Position numbers and translations under genes: made by a program. Under the pieces are notes generated by a model. That model had not been told where the DNA came from. It made no database searches and saw only the letters and a program-made list of their open reading frames with translations. Below, piece after piece: positions 2,992-47,257 of a stretch of DNA of 47,257 nucleotides. The DNA is from Peptococcaceae bacterium (GTDB lineage Bacteria > Bacillota > Dehalobacteriia > UBA4068 > JAAVYR01): NCBI GenBank assembly GCA_022791255.1, contig JAAVYR010000012.1:1-47257 (forward strand). The letters are read 5' to 3'. Numbering within the stretch: the stretch's first letter is position 1; each line of letters begins with the position of its first letter.

Positions 2992-3029
2992 AAAGTTGTT
3001 CTATCTGTGTGCCAAGCGGGAGTTGGCAG

Positions 3030-3060
3030 AAAAAGATCCTTCGCTTTTGCTCAGGATAAT
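3030..3060. repeat. Single arm of the GTCATCCTGAG repeat family
   Basis: The segment AAAAAGATCCTTCG...CTCAGGATAAT is one arm in the inverted orientation. No partner arm is seen nearby. It lies in the gap after the CvpA gene. Confidence 0.55.
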
Positions 3061-6563: not shown

Positions 6564-7724
6564 ATGACCAATTTACCGGAGGAAGAAAAAAAGGAGCTAT
6601 CTCAAACACCTGAACAGCTTGAAGAAACCCAGCCTCTTTGGGTGGAAGATAGAGATATAGAGCCTAAGCTCGGCGTACCTACAGACTTGCGGGAGGAAGA
6701 GGCTTGCTATAACCAACCGGCAGAGGTTTATCAAAGAATGACCCAACCGGTGCTGCCGCAGGGCGGTGCCAGGACGCTGGCTGTGGGGGCTATGTGCGCT
6801 TGTCTTGTCGTGGTACTGTCTTTGATTGGGTATTACATACCGGTTATGAGTCCGTTACTTGCCTTTATGGTGCCATTGCCTATGGTGGTGGCGGGGCTCA
6901 TGTGTGGGCTTGCAACAGGATTAGTTAGTTTGGTGGCAGCAAGTGTGTTGTTGGCCATGTTTATAGGCCCTTTGAGTGCGGTTACTGTAGGGGTGCGTTA
7001 TTGTCTACTGGGGCTGGCTCTTGGGGTATGTTTTCGGCGGGGATACAGCGGCGGTAAGGTTTTTGCCATTGTGACGGTGGTATCTACTGTCAGCATTGCT
7101 TTGGGCACGGTCTTCTCTTTTTGGATTGCGGGTATTCCTATCCTGCAAGGGATAGAGAAAATGATAGCTTCGGTGACAGTGGTGTATGATACATTGGCAG
7201 AGCAAGAACAAATGCTGGCATTGCTTCCGCCGGGTATGGGTATGGATGAATACATTGCTGTCTTGAAACGCACAACAGTGGCAATTCTTCCGGCAACCTT
7301 TGTAATTTATTGTATGCTAATCGTTTGGGTAAACTATCTGGTTAGTTCCTTTGTATTGGGGCGCATGGGCTACAGGGTAACGCCGCTGCCTGCCTTTTCC
7401 CGTTGGCAAATGCCATTGTCTATTCTTTGGCTAGCGATGGCGGGGTTTGCCTTTGGCATTGCTGGAAATTATCTGCAGATGGAGCTGTTAGCCAATATTA
7501 GTTTTAATTTGCTGTATATGACTATTCCCTTGTTTCTTTTGTGTGGGATGAGTGTGCTGTATTATTATCTGCAGCGGCGGGAAATTCCCCAATTGATGAA
7601 AATGGGAGCGCTCTTATTTTTGATTATTTTTGCTGCTTTTGGCTTTGTCGTTCTAACTGTTGTGGGCATGTTTGACGCGGTCTTTGATTGGCGGAACTTG
7701 CATGGTGCTGCAGCCAGAAAATAA
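6564..7724 (+). CDS. DUF2232 (YybS-like) membrane protein, copy 1
   Basis: 386 residues. A soluble, acidic N-terminal tail of about 75 residues is followed by roughly eight membrane helices from AVGAMCACLVVVLSLIGYYIP to the C-terminus. The end MFDAVFDWRNL and the internal LPAFSRWQMP are characteristic of the DUF2232/YybS family found upstream of rplI in Bacillota. These may be energy-coupling or S-component-like membrane proteins, but the function is unproven. The gene is followed by a second, diverged member. The usual intervening gdpP/yybT gene (cyclic-di-AMP phosphodiesterase) is not here. Confidence 0.8.
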   Translation: MTNLPEEEKKELSQTPEQLEETQPLWVEDRDIEPKLGVPTDLREEEACYNQPAEVYQRMTQPVLPQGGARTLAVGAMCACLVVVLSLIGYYIPVMSPLLAFMVPLPMVVAGLMCGLATGLVSLVAASVLLAMFIGPLSAVTVGVRYCLLGLALGVCFRRGYSGGKVFAIVTVVSTVSIALGTVFSFWIAGIPILQGIEKMIASVTVVYDTLAEQEQMLALLPPGMGMDEYIAVLKRTTVAILPATFVIYCMLIVWVNYLVSSFVLGRMGYRVTPLPAFSRWQMPLSILWLAMAGFAFGIAGNYLQMELLANISFNLLYMTIPLFLLCGMSVLYYYLQRREIPQLMKMGALLFLIIFAAFGFVVLTVVGMFDAVFDWRNLHGAAARK

Positions 7725-7917: not shown

Positions 7918-9108
7918 ATGGAAGAACAAAAAATAGAAGAAATAAAACAGGAGGAAAGCATCTCTGGCAAATCTGATGTTACGATAGATGAGACCATAAA
8001 ACAGAAGACCTTTATGCAGCTGCTGTTTCTTTCCTTGGTGAGCGGCGCGCTTCTTTTGAGCGTGGTATCTCTTCGTGAGGTGCTGCCTGTTGTTGGTGTG
8101 GTTATTTATTGGATTTATCCCATTGTGATTGCAAGCCTTACATACAAATATGGCGTAACAATGGGGGCATGCACAATGGGTGTTGCTCATTGCCTGTTGT
8201 ATGCGGTGTGGAGTCCGACCATAGCTCTTTCGGTCACGCTGGGTGTTGGGTTGATAGGACTTCTTTTCGGTATTGGTTTTCGTAAGAGATATCAGGGCAA
8301 GAATATTTATCTTCTTTCTCTTTTGCCCTATGGGGTAATGGGACTGTTATTTTTCATTCTGCCTATTCCTAATCATGGCGTAGTATATCAAATAATTATT
8401 GATTTGTTTGGTTGGGCTTACGCCATTGCGTTGGGCATGGCGGAGGGGATTATGGAAGAAGGTATCCCTTTATCTCGAGATTATGTGGCGCAATTTTTCG
8501 GTATGATTTTACCATCGCTGTTGATTGTGCGATGCTTGGTGGTAGTGTTGTTTTATTATCTGCTGACAGGATTTGCCATGAAGGAAATGGGTCATAAGGT
8601 TTCTACTATGCCGGCTTTTTCTACTTGGAAAATGCCTCGATGGTATTGTCTTTCTATATTAACGATTACCATTGTCAGTAGTTTTTTCTCTTTTGAGAAA
8701 AATTTGCTGTCCTTATTCTGCGCCAATGCTATTGCTGTGTCTGTAGTGTTGTTTTTTATATGTGGTCTTTCTTTGTTTTGGCATTATATTCGTCACAGTC
8801 AAGTGTCAGTGTGGCTAAAAATTGCGGTCGTTATCTTTATGATTTGCATTTCTTCTCTCAGTGTCAGTGCAGCGATTGTTCTTGGTATGCTGGATGGTAT
8901 CTTTGATTTCCGTAAGCTGAAAAAGCAAGGACCAGCAGCGCCTGTGGTCTCTGAGGGGGAAGCTGCCGTGGCATGGGAAAAGGCAGCATTTGAAAAAGCA
9001 GCTCAAGAAAAAACGTCTGAAGATGAAGCAGCAACTGCTGCGGTGGAAATAGGGGGAGAACCAGAAGAAAAAACGGTTGATGAAACGATAAATGTGAAGG
9101 AAGATTAG
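7918..9108 (+). CDS. DUF2232 (YybS-like) membrane protein, copy 2
   Basis: 396 residues. The acidic N-terminal tail is shorter than in copy 1 and is followed by about eight membrane helices. MPAFSTWKMP and LGMLDGIFDFRKL align with the same places in copy 1. It ends with an extra tail of about 75 residues rich in Glu and Ala (EKAAFEKAAQEKTSEDEAATAA), which copy 1 lacks and which probably lies in the cytoplasm. The pair arose by tandem duplication and then diverged strongly. The gene ends 30 bases before rplI, with which it is probably transcribed. Confidence 0.78.
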   Translation: MEEQKIEEIKQEESISGKSDVTIDETIKQKTFMQLLFLSLVSGALLLSVVSLREVLPVVGVVIYWIYPIVIASLTYKYGVTMGACTMGVAHCLLYAVWSPTIALSVTLGVGLIGLLFGIGFRKRYQGKNIYLLSLLPYGVMGLLFFILPIPNHGVVYQIIIDLFGWAYAIALGMAEGIMEEGIPLSRDYVAQFFGMILPSLLIVRCLVVVLFYYLLTGFAMKEMGHKVSTMPAFSTWKMPRWYCLSILTITIVSSFFSFEKNLLSLFCANAIAVSVVLFFICGLSLFWHYIRHSQVSVWLKIAVVIFMICISSLSVSAAIVLGMLDGIFDFRKLKKQGPAAPVVSEGEAAVAWEKAAFEKAAQEKTSEDEAATAAVEIGGEPEEKTVDETINVKED

Positions 9109-14056: not shown

Positions 14057-14068
14057 TCACAGATAATC

Positions 14069-14108
14069 AAAAAAAAGGACTGCAATATTTTGCAGTCCTT
14101 TTTTTTGT
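14069..14108 (+). terminator. Terminator of ilvC
   Basis: AAAAAAAAGGACTGCA pairs with TGCAGTCCTTTTTTTT around a six-base loop. Confidence 0.92.
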
Positions 14109-14144: not shown

Positions 14145-14640
14145 CATGCTACTTTTTACAGGTGGGCAAGTGCTAAAAGTTACTTTGGGTAAATCTTTAA
14201 CTTCTTTTAGAAAAAGAAGCAAAACTGCCGCCTGGTTGACCAAGTAACAGCCTCGCCAGAAGTTAGCGTTCCCCGCGTCAAACAGGCGGCGGGTCCCCGA
14301 GAAAGTATTTAAAGATCCTTCGTCGTTGTACTCCTCAGGATGACAGATGGTGCCATTTTGTACGAGAGCGAGGTTTGCTGCTTCCTGTGCCTAAAGTAAT
14401 TGTCGGTAGTAGTGAGTAAGCTTTTGTACTTAGTGGCATAGCATGTCATCCTGAGCGAAGCGAAGGATCTTTTTCCCATTTCGTCGGGGAAGGCAATCTG
14501 TTTGCCGCGGGGAGCACTAGGTAGTGACGAGGCTGCAAGGTAAAGACAACCTGATTGCGATTTTTGTTCTTTTCTTAAAAGAACAGGCAAAGCAAGCCCA
14601 AGGTAAGTTATTCGTACTTGCCCAACTGTTAGAGGTAATC
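14145..14640. repeat. Composite inverted repeat of about 0.5 kb (copy A)
   Basis: There is no gene between ilvC and the VanW gene (14057-14978). Most of this stretch is one imperfect inverted repeat centred near 14395. The far arms match when one is reversed: CGCGTCAAACAGGCGG and CAGCCTCG on the left against GTTTGCCGCGGGGA and CGAGGCTG on the right, and GGCAAG against CTTGCCC further out. Inside them are GATCCTTCG...CTCAGGATGACA (14313-14345) and TGTCATCCTGAG...CGAAGGATC (14444-14469). Next come TGCCA..TTGTACG and GTAC..GTGGCA, then an inner stem around the loop AAAGTAATTGTC. Frames across it are not gene-like. It resembles a miniature mobile or folded element. Confidence 0.7.
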
Positions 14641-14659
14641 TGTAACTTTTAATAATACA

Positions 14660-14872
14660 TATACTACTTTTTACAGAAGGGCGAGTTCCTGAGAAAGTAT
14701 TTTTAGATCCTTCGTCACTGTGTTCCTCAGGATGACATATCATGCCACGGATGACACCACAAGTATTGCCACTCTGTACGGAGGCTTACTCTCTACTTTC
14801 TAGGCAAAAGTAATTGTCAGAAGTAGTTCGCAGTTTTTTGTACCGCGTGGCATGATATGTCATTTCTCTGGA
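14660..14872. repeat. Second, shortened copy of the composite repeat (copy B)
   Basis: It begins with the same TACTTTTTACAG seen near the left end of copy A. It then jumps to CTGAGAAAGTATTTTTAGATCC, so about 120 bases of the left arm are missing. The core follows: CCTCAGGATGACATATCATGCCACG is mirrored by CGTGGCATGATATGTCAT. The inner stem CTACTTTC/GAAGTAG surrounds the loop AAAAGTAATTGTC. The outer right arm is degraded. The copy ends about 105 bases before the VanW gene. Confidence 0.65.
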
Positions 14873-22619: not shown

Positions 22620-22636
22620 AGTATATTTTTTCGTAA

Positions 22637-22715
22637 TGTCATCCTGAGCAAAGCGAAGAATCTTAAACGTATCTTGCTGTAAAGATTCTTCGGAACAATA
22701 TTCCTCAGAATGACA
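22637..22715. repeat. Palindromic repeat, GTCATCCTGAG family, between trxB and walJ
   Basis: TGTCATCCTGAGCAAAGCG then AAGAATCTT on the left, and AAAGATTCTTCG then CCTCAGAATGACA on the right, form a clear inverted pair of about 28 bases per arm. This is the cleanest example of the basic unit in the window. Confidence 0.8.
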
Positions 22716-22767
22716 GAAAAGTATGATTTTAAGCAGGCAAGAAATCTTTTAAGGAGGAATGAGGGCG

Positions 22768-35270: not shown

Positions 35271-35304
35271 AAGAACCTTCGCTAGCGCTCAGGATGACAG
35301 ATGG
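35271..35304. repeat. Single arm of the GTCATCCTGAG repeat family
   Basis: AAGAACCTTCGCTAGCG followed by CTCAGGATGACAG is one arm in the inverted orientation, between the tRNAs and the next gene. Confidence 0.6.
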
Positions 35305-46854: not shown

Positions 46855-46992
46855 CGCTGTACGGATGGTGCCACTTTGTACGAAAGCAAAATTCACTACT
46901 TCCCATGCAAAAGTAATTGTCGGAAGTAGTAAGTAATTTTCTCGTACTCTGTGGCATAATAGGTCATCCTGAGGAACGAAGTGACGAAGGAT
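46855..46992. repeat. Composite palindromic repeat (copy C)
   Basis: GGTGCCACTTTGTACGA (46867-46883) mirrors GTACTCTGTGGCA (46944-46956). Inside, AAAATT and ACTACTTCC mirror GGAAGTAGT and AATTTT around the loop with AAAAGTAATTGTC (46910-46922). The core matches those of copies A and B at 14.3-14.9 kb. On the right it continues into GTCATCCTGAGGAACG and GACGAAGGATC, the short family arm; a left counterpart is missing. Confidence 0.75.
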
Positions 46993-46995
46993 CTT

Positions 46996-47030
46996 AAAAA
47001 GACTTGCAATTTAGATTGCAAGTCTTTTTT
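46996..47030. terminator. Bidirectional terminator after fba
   Basis: AAAAAGACTTGCAA and TTGCAAGTCTTTTTT pair around a six-base loop. It lies between fba (+) and the partial minus-strand gene. Confidence 0.9.
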
Positions 47031-47040
47031 ATTTTAAATC

Positions 47041-47257
47041 TTATGCCTGGCAGCAGTCATAGCCCAGGTTAAAGAAAATCCACAAGTTCTTTTCAAAGGG
47101 GGCATAAAGCCGCTTGTAGAGTTGGTCTACTTTGGACAGTCTATCCCGGAGATAATCGGAGGCCAAGTATTGCTGTAAATCTTTGAATATGACTTCCTGC
47201 CCTTTTTTTAATTTGCCGTATCGTTCGCTGCTTTTGATTTTCTCCAGATAGAATTTA
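47041..47257 (-). CDS. C-terminal end of an unknown minus-strand gene (cut by window edge)
   Basis: An uninterrupted minus-strand frame runs from the window edge to a TAA at 47041-47043, giving the last 71 residues of a protein. It is charged and helical (KLKKGQEVIFKDLQQYLAS, YLRDRLSKVDQLYKRL) and ends WIFFNLGYDCCQA. The terminator at 46996-47030 lies directly behind it, which supports a real gene. The product cannot be named from this piece. Confidence 0.6.
   Translation of the reverse strand, partial: KFYLEKIKSSERYGKLKKGQEVIFKDLQQYLASDYLRDRLSKVDQLYKRLYAPFEKNLWIFFNLGYDCCQA

Follow-up and report, generated by a model that had tools for sequence, protein, structure and literature searches.

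A genus-restricted dispersed palindrome and the borders of putative surface-protein donor cassettes in a Peptococcaceae bacterium

ERIC, BOX, and RUP elements are imperfect palindromes of ~100-150 bp that are intergenic, modular, and limited to particular taxa, and the repeat core described here is like them in these respects. Those families, however, are not known to border donor cassettes one by one, and in this the core differs. Among the systems that combine repeats with surface genes, the neisserial dRS3/RS and Correia elements form repeat arrays that are reportedly associated with such genes, and the meningococcal pilS loci reportedly lie within arrays (PMC3898611). Like the neisserial genomes, the genome studied here holds both dispersed intergenic palindromes and promoterless silent surface-protein cassettes; pilS, however, is embedded in arrays of other repeats, whereas here each cassette has its own co-oriented borders of ~100 bp (PMC3898611). 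The neisserial dRS3/NIME pattern, ATTCCC-N8-GGGAAT, has no match, with up to one mismatch, in the 47,257-nucleotide stretch of DNA that we analyzed (hereafter, the window).

Two further groups of described systems bear comparison. TIME-COMPs are derived from the Tn3 family, show direct repeats of 5-6 bp at their target, and carry resistance cargo; as here, their cargo lies between two short non-coding inverted-repeat elements, sometimes arranged as direct repeats, and integration of circles has been proposed for them (PMC13367494). They differ in that the cargo here is nearly always the same donor cassette family, and no target duplications were read (PMC13367494). TprK of Treponema pallidum (PMC10063172) and vls of Borrelia (PMC11499132) each have a single expression site together with many partial copies that are silent, a plan that the present system, with its apparent expression site, seems to follow. 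Most of their donors sit together at one or two sites, whereas here ~20 are spread over many loci and bordered by palindromes; switching is proven in those systems, whereas here we infer it (PMC10063172, PMC11499132). In its working, the arrangement would find its closest analogues in the neisserial repeat arrays around pilS and in MITE-bounded composite structures.

The window contains three strong imperfect palindromes, A (14145-14640), B (14660-14872), and C (46855-46992), which have a common core of ~96 bp. Self-comparison and covariance-model matches place them where a preliminary description, made from the letters of the window, had put them, and the loop motif AAAGTAATTGTC is indeed identical in all three. 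Folded as a single strand with DNA parameters, copy A reaches -104.1 kcal/mol (z = -10.1 against dinucleotide shuffles), and copies B and C each have a z of -3.0. The further mirrored arms that had been noticed in copy A are real: in an inverted blastn self-alignment, they are ~68% identical over 211 bp. Copy B had been likened to copy A with an internal deletion, and this also holds, with 26 bp matched at 14146-14171 of A followed by a jump to 14288-14355 (82%), so that the interior of the left arm is missing. No convincing gene lies inside the palindromes, as the same description had judged from their reading frames.

Copy A is a composite, a nest of separately dispersed repeats, each of which is also found singly at other genomic places. 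The arms of a palindrome that we call ARM lie outside, a ~30-bp hairpin called M2 (TGTCATCCTGAG..GAAGGATC) stands on each side of the core, and the core occupies the center. From left to right, these are the left ARM (14150..14305, + strand), of which long copies are 87-97% identical in the same genome and 75-87% identical in the two sister species; the left M2 (14308..14345, - strand), a 75% inverted match to the M2 on the other side; core A (14347..14442, + strand; covariance-model match 70.9 bits); the right M2 (14440..14475, + strand); and the right ARM (14480..14640, - strand). Copy B comprises an ARM-end remnant, an M2, and core B (14763..14856, + strand; 64.1 bits), which ends in a 6-T tract and has a terminator-like fold of -15.2 kcal/mol. 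Core C (46865..46960, + strand; 87.0 bits) is followed by an M2 (46961..46995, + strand). Further M2-type hairpins (TCATCCTGAG..GAAGGATC) occur in intergenic DNA of the window at ~1118-1215, 3029-3057, 22636-22717, and 35271-35304.

Copies A and B are positioned beyond the intrinsic terminator of ilvC (14068..14107), which the scan reports on the - strand and which is palindromic with T-runs on both strands. Copy C lies after the fba stop codon and before the intrinsic terminator 3' of fba (46996..47029, + strand). All three are of the dispersed kind, without a cassette. Two other features of the window were noted. At 46996-47257 lies part of a gene, also multi-copy, for a product of ~171 aa that matches nothing in Pfam or NCBIfam; several copies of it occur across the three species of the genus, and the contig ends inside it. 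Two membrane proteins encoded side by side at 6564-7724 and 7918-9108 resemble each other in size and in the layout of the N terminus, a possible tandem duplication.

We compared three species of the genus, with one assembly per species: the present genome (G000; 1.56 Mb in 24 contigs, many of them broken within cassettes) and the sister species G001 and G002, which are incomplete (87% and 75%). A covariance model built from 48 copies (G000 plus 13 from G001), with two-strand matches merged for counting, finds the core at ~68 places in G000, which bears out the expectation that copies exist elsewhere in the genome, and at ~35 places in G001. G002 yields a single marginal match, and 32 further genomes from the order yield none. 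The core is thus a genus-restricted dispersed repeat. The exact core pattern has two matches in named genomes, both in unrelated Flavobacteriales, and the core has none in viral contigs.

The core measures ~96-108 bp, with ends GGATNNTGCCAC...GTGGCANNATCC, an imperfect stem, and a loop of ~15 nt that distinguishes two subfamilies. Type I includes the window copies and all 13 G001 copies of the 48-copy alignment; type II is found within that alignment in G000 only. Anatomically, the core fits the MITE/ERIC type of non-autonomous dispersed palindromes, being short and non-coding with terminal inverted repeats and many dispersed copies. Dispersed cores, those without a cassette, stand in both orientations relative to neighboring genes and depart in no clear way from background in their preference for gene 3' ends. 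Because the copies are old (mean identity 63%) and some sites are common to G000 and G001, recent mobility of the core is not shown. Orthologous pairs are mostly no closer than random between-species pairs (0.51-0.64), with the exception of the trkH-trkA site (0.65-0.70), which suggests turnover or homogenization.

ARM, also a dispersed palindrome but distinct from the core, occurs in all three species. Directly after the ilvC terminator of G001 stands an ARM palindrome with an unrelated spacer of ~100 bp where copy A has M2-core-M2; because this ortholog lacks that insert, the core was inserted into an older ARM palindrome or took the place of its center. After fba, G001 has only a weak core-like match, and no core was found there in G002. 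Judged by their high identity within G000, the long ARM copies are apparently younger than the core copies. At other loci, the left and right ARM arms occur head-to-head as well as tail-to-tail, and several small XRE-type helix-turn-helix proteins (~124 aa) lie beside ARM repeats at L247, L249, and L255, in different species of the genus. Two other arrangements of the core were seen in G000. After metK, units of ~41 bp, each half a core, form a tandem array beside a full core (L286:2143-2364; G000:C23 ~18.1-18.4 kb), and in a prophage-like region, a single 276-aa gene is bracketed by three cores, co-oriented as they are with cassettes (L284:2037-3385; G000:C24 ~31.5-32.9 kb).

Many type II cores flank open frames that start with MVPPIPQAAWAAPSST and end near SNGSFTIQKVPE. 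There are 29 matches to these cassettes in G000, many of them cut off at the end of a contig, the assembly being broken within cassettes, and 9 in G001; in G002, no donors were found. About 20 cassettes are silent, each encoding ~450 aa without a promoter or start region. Their first 45-50 bp are almost identical, their middles differ (44-62% amino acid identity to a reference cassette), and of the 19 cassette sequences examined, which include the presumed expressed copy, 18 have an open frame. The cassettes are partial copies that lack a promoter, keep their frames intact, and are conserved at the ends, which is the makeup of donor cassettes. The variable domain has no relatives in a PDB profile search with the cassette alignment, in Pfam, in NCBIfam, or in plasmids.

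The gene to which the cassettes correspond apparently begins after mnmG. In G000, the end of contig C2 carries a gene start with a ribosome-binding site and a signal peptide (MKIKNLLNQ...), and G001, which has its own donors, has an mnmG-linked start with a signal peptide as well. Contig C21 (L220, G000:C21:1-11553) is a single open frame of 3850 codons, open at both ends. Its product has an N-terminal head that is variable and rich in Gly, and it also contains >20 FN3 domains and a dockerin. C21 overlaps the end of C2 by 141 bp, and we infer rather than read their join because contig C1 has the same 141 bp. The mnmG-linked gene (L230 at the C2 end; L314 in G001) is the apparent expression site of the donor-cassette system. 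Although most cassettes differ widely, there are pairs of contigs whose cassette ends are identical over at least 141 bases, as would fit a recent exchange between cassettes. No assembled donor closely matches the presumed expressed copy beyond its ends, so that gene conversion into it is not directly seen. Altogether, the ~20 spare copies of this giant surface protein, all promoterless, look like a store for changing the cell surface.

The core is closely associated with these cassettes. In G000, a core lies within 85 bp, and usually within 20 bp, of ~16 of the 20 resolved 5' ends of silent cassettes and of 16 of the 18 3' ends; in G001, a core is found at eight cassette starts. Every cassette-flanking core is co-oriented with its cassette (36/36), although neither this count nor the U-tract counts given below represent independent events because core-cassette units were probably duplicated together. 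The junctions between core and cassette vary by tens of bases. Cassettes of G001 begin ~70 codons further into the gene than those of G000, and the core adjoins the start of homology in both. Arrays of the form core-cassette-core-cassette occur at L211 and L221 in G000 and at L256 in G001. Between mnmG and the start of the giant gene, no core is present in either genome.

Cores upstream of cassettes are also often terminator-like. Terminator prediction finds a sense-strand hairpin with an immediate U-tract in 12 of 20 upstream cores vs. 6 of 83 others (p = 9e-7). At least seven consecutive T occur in 10/18 upstream cores vs. 1/80 others. With a threshold of at least six T, the difference is strong in G001 (8/8 vs. 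3/27) and weak in G000 (5/12 vs. 8/56, p = 0.04). From this sequence signature, cores upstream of silent cassettes probably stop transcription entering the cassette.

The reading that we favor, with a probability of about 0.6, is that the core is a mobile but non-autonomous palindrome and that some of its copies came to border antigenic-variation donors, where they probably also stop transcription. The core would have been carried, presumably by an enzyme, to many intergenic sites, often next to M2 or ARM, which are themselves palindromic repeats, or within them. Copies A, B, and C would be dispersed copies in which pairing decays without selection. Other cores, in G000 and G001, would serve as direct-repeat, co-oriented borders of donor cassettes for the variable N-terminal part of the giant protein, and they probably mark, or produced, the cassette ends during copying and dispersal. 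Where a core lies upstream, transcription would probably halt before the silent cassette, and switching would follow from recombination of donors into the expression site. In the genome stretches read, no element with a transposase between two cores was seen and no transposase or integrase acting on the core was identified, and the empty orthologous intergenic regions are too diverged for reading a target-site duplication at the core.

Terminal inverted repeats, intergenic scatter, nested insertion, and the lack of coding capacity would also suit a plainer account, in which the core is MITE/ERIC-like junk once moved by a transposase in trans and its link to cassettes is hitch-hiking with a few duplicated core-cassette-core units; the indifference of non-cassette copies to gene ends fits as well. 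We consider this account unlikely, though worth keeping in mind, because cassette boundaries differ between the two species while cores adjoin both, because there are several distinct core-cassette junctions at both ends, and because U-tracts are concentrated in the upstream cores. Nor was an autonomous partner found in the stretches read. REPIN/REP elements with a RAYT were rejected as a candidate identity, as the Y1 transposase (PF01797) is present in none of the three genomes (0/3), whereas positive controls were detected.

A more ambitious version, in which the palindrome is a working part of a system that both spreads and silences cassettes, seems to us rather doubtful. Under this scheme, palindrome-cassette units would be copied or circularized and land at other palindromes elsewhere on the chromosome, and the upstream palindrome would terminate transcription until recombination carried the cassette into the single giant-adhesin expression site.

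The co-oriented, direct-repeat palindromes between cassettes and the core-cassette-core-cassette arrays also recall integrons, in which case the core would be a folded attC-like site and cassettes with one core would move as circles by a site-specific recombinase. This is improbable: integron integrase (TIGR02249) does not rise above the cut-off in the three genomes, which have only generic tyrosine recombinases; no locus was found at which one species has a lone core in the place of the other's cassette, the empty sites that were read having neither; and the junctions vary by several bases.

The preliminary description had seen stems kept by matched changes around a conserved loop, and on that ground had judged the repeat to be more like a folded RNA or protein-binding site than a dead insertion. 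Individual copies do fold strongly, the loop strand mostly folds more stably than the opposite strand, and there is a mild excess of G-U over A-C (124 vs. 93). With the palindromic structure imposed on the 48 copies, however, 75.7% of cells are paired vs. 76.2% in shuffles, pairs with double changes number 11 vs. 11.1, and the covariation score is 0.136 vs. 0.142. There is no covariation above shuffles within the type I, type II, or G001 copies either, and among A, B, and C, no stem position has a compensatory double change, the variable positions being one-sided or mismatched. RNAalifold yields no consensus structure for the family, and an Rfam scan of the window returns only tRNAs, leaving the palindromes without a match. 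The loop is not constant in the family: across the 48 copies, column identity is 0.80 in the loop motif, 0.83 in the inner stem, and 0.86 at the outer ends, and the whole genome has only 5 exact AAAGTAATTGTC sites. Since there is no covariation, no consensus fold, and no extra conservation of the loop, the arms look as though they were once the halves of one ancestral palindrome and have decayed independently since. Covariance analysis of the genomic copies thus shows that paired changes are not in excess and that the loop varies, and the folded-RNA, conserved-loop reading is therefore refuted, although the repeat is not random debris and the palindrome itself may matter. A structured RNA or protein-binding hairpin selected across the family, with a transcript fold or its binding protein functional at every copy, is on these grounds the least probable of the readings considered, and the position of A and B after the ilvC terminator also speaks against it. 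What survives is a limited RNA role for a subset, as cores just upstream of silent cassettes often resemble intrinsic terminators.

Donor-cassette antigenic variation is best known from pathogens, and a comparable arrangement is found here, in a bacterium whose gene content looks like that of the Negativicutes, with ~20 donors over many loci. Each donor is bordered by the same co-oriented palindrome, and the sister species follows the same plan with different cassette boundaries. If the favored reading is true, it would make testable how donor cassettes arise and disperse and how their silence is kept.
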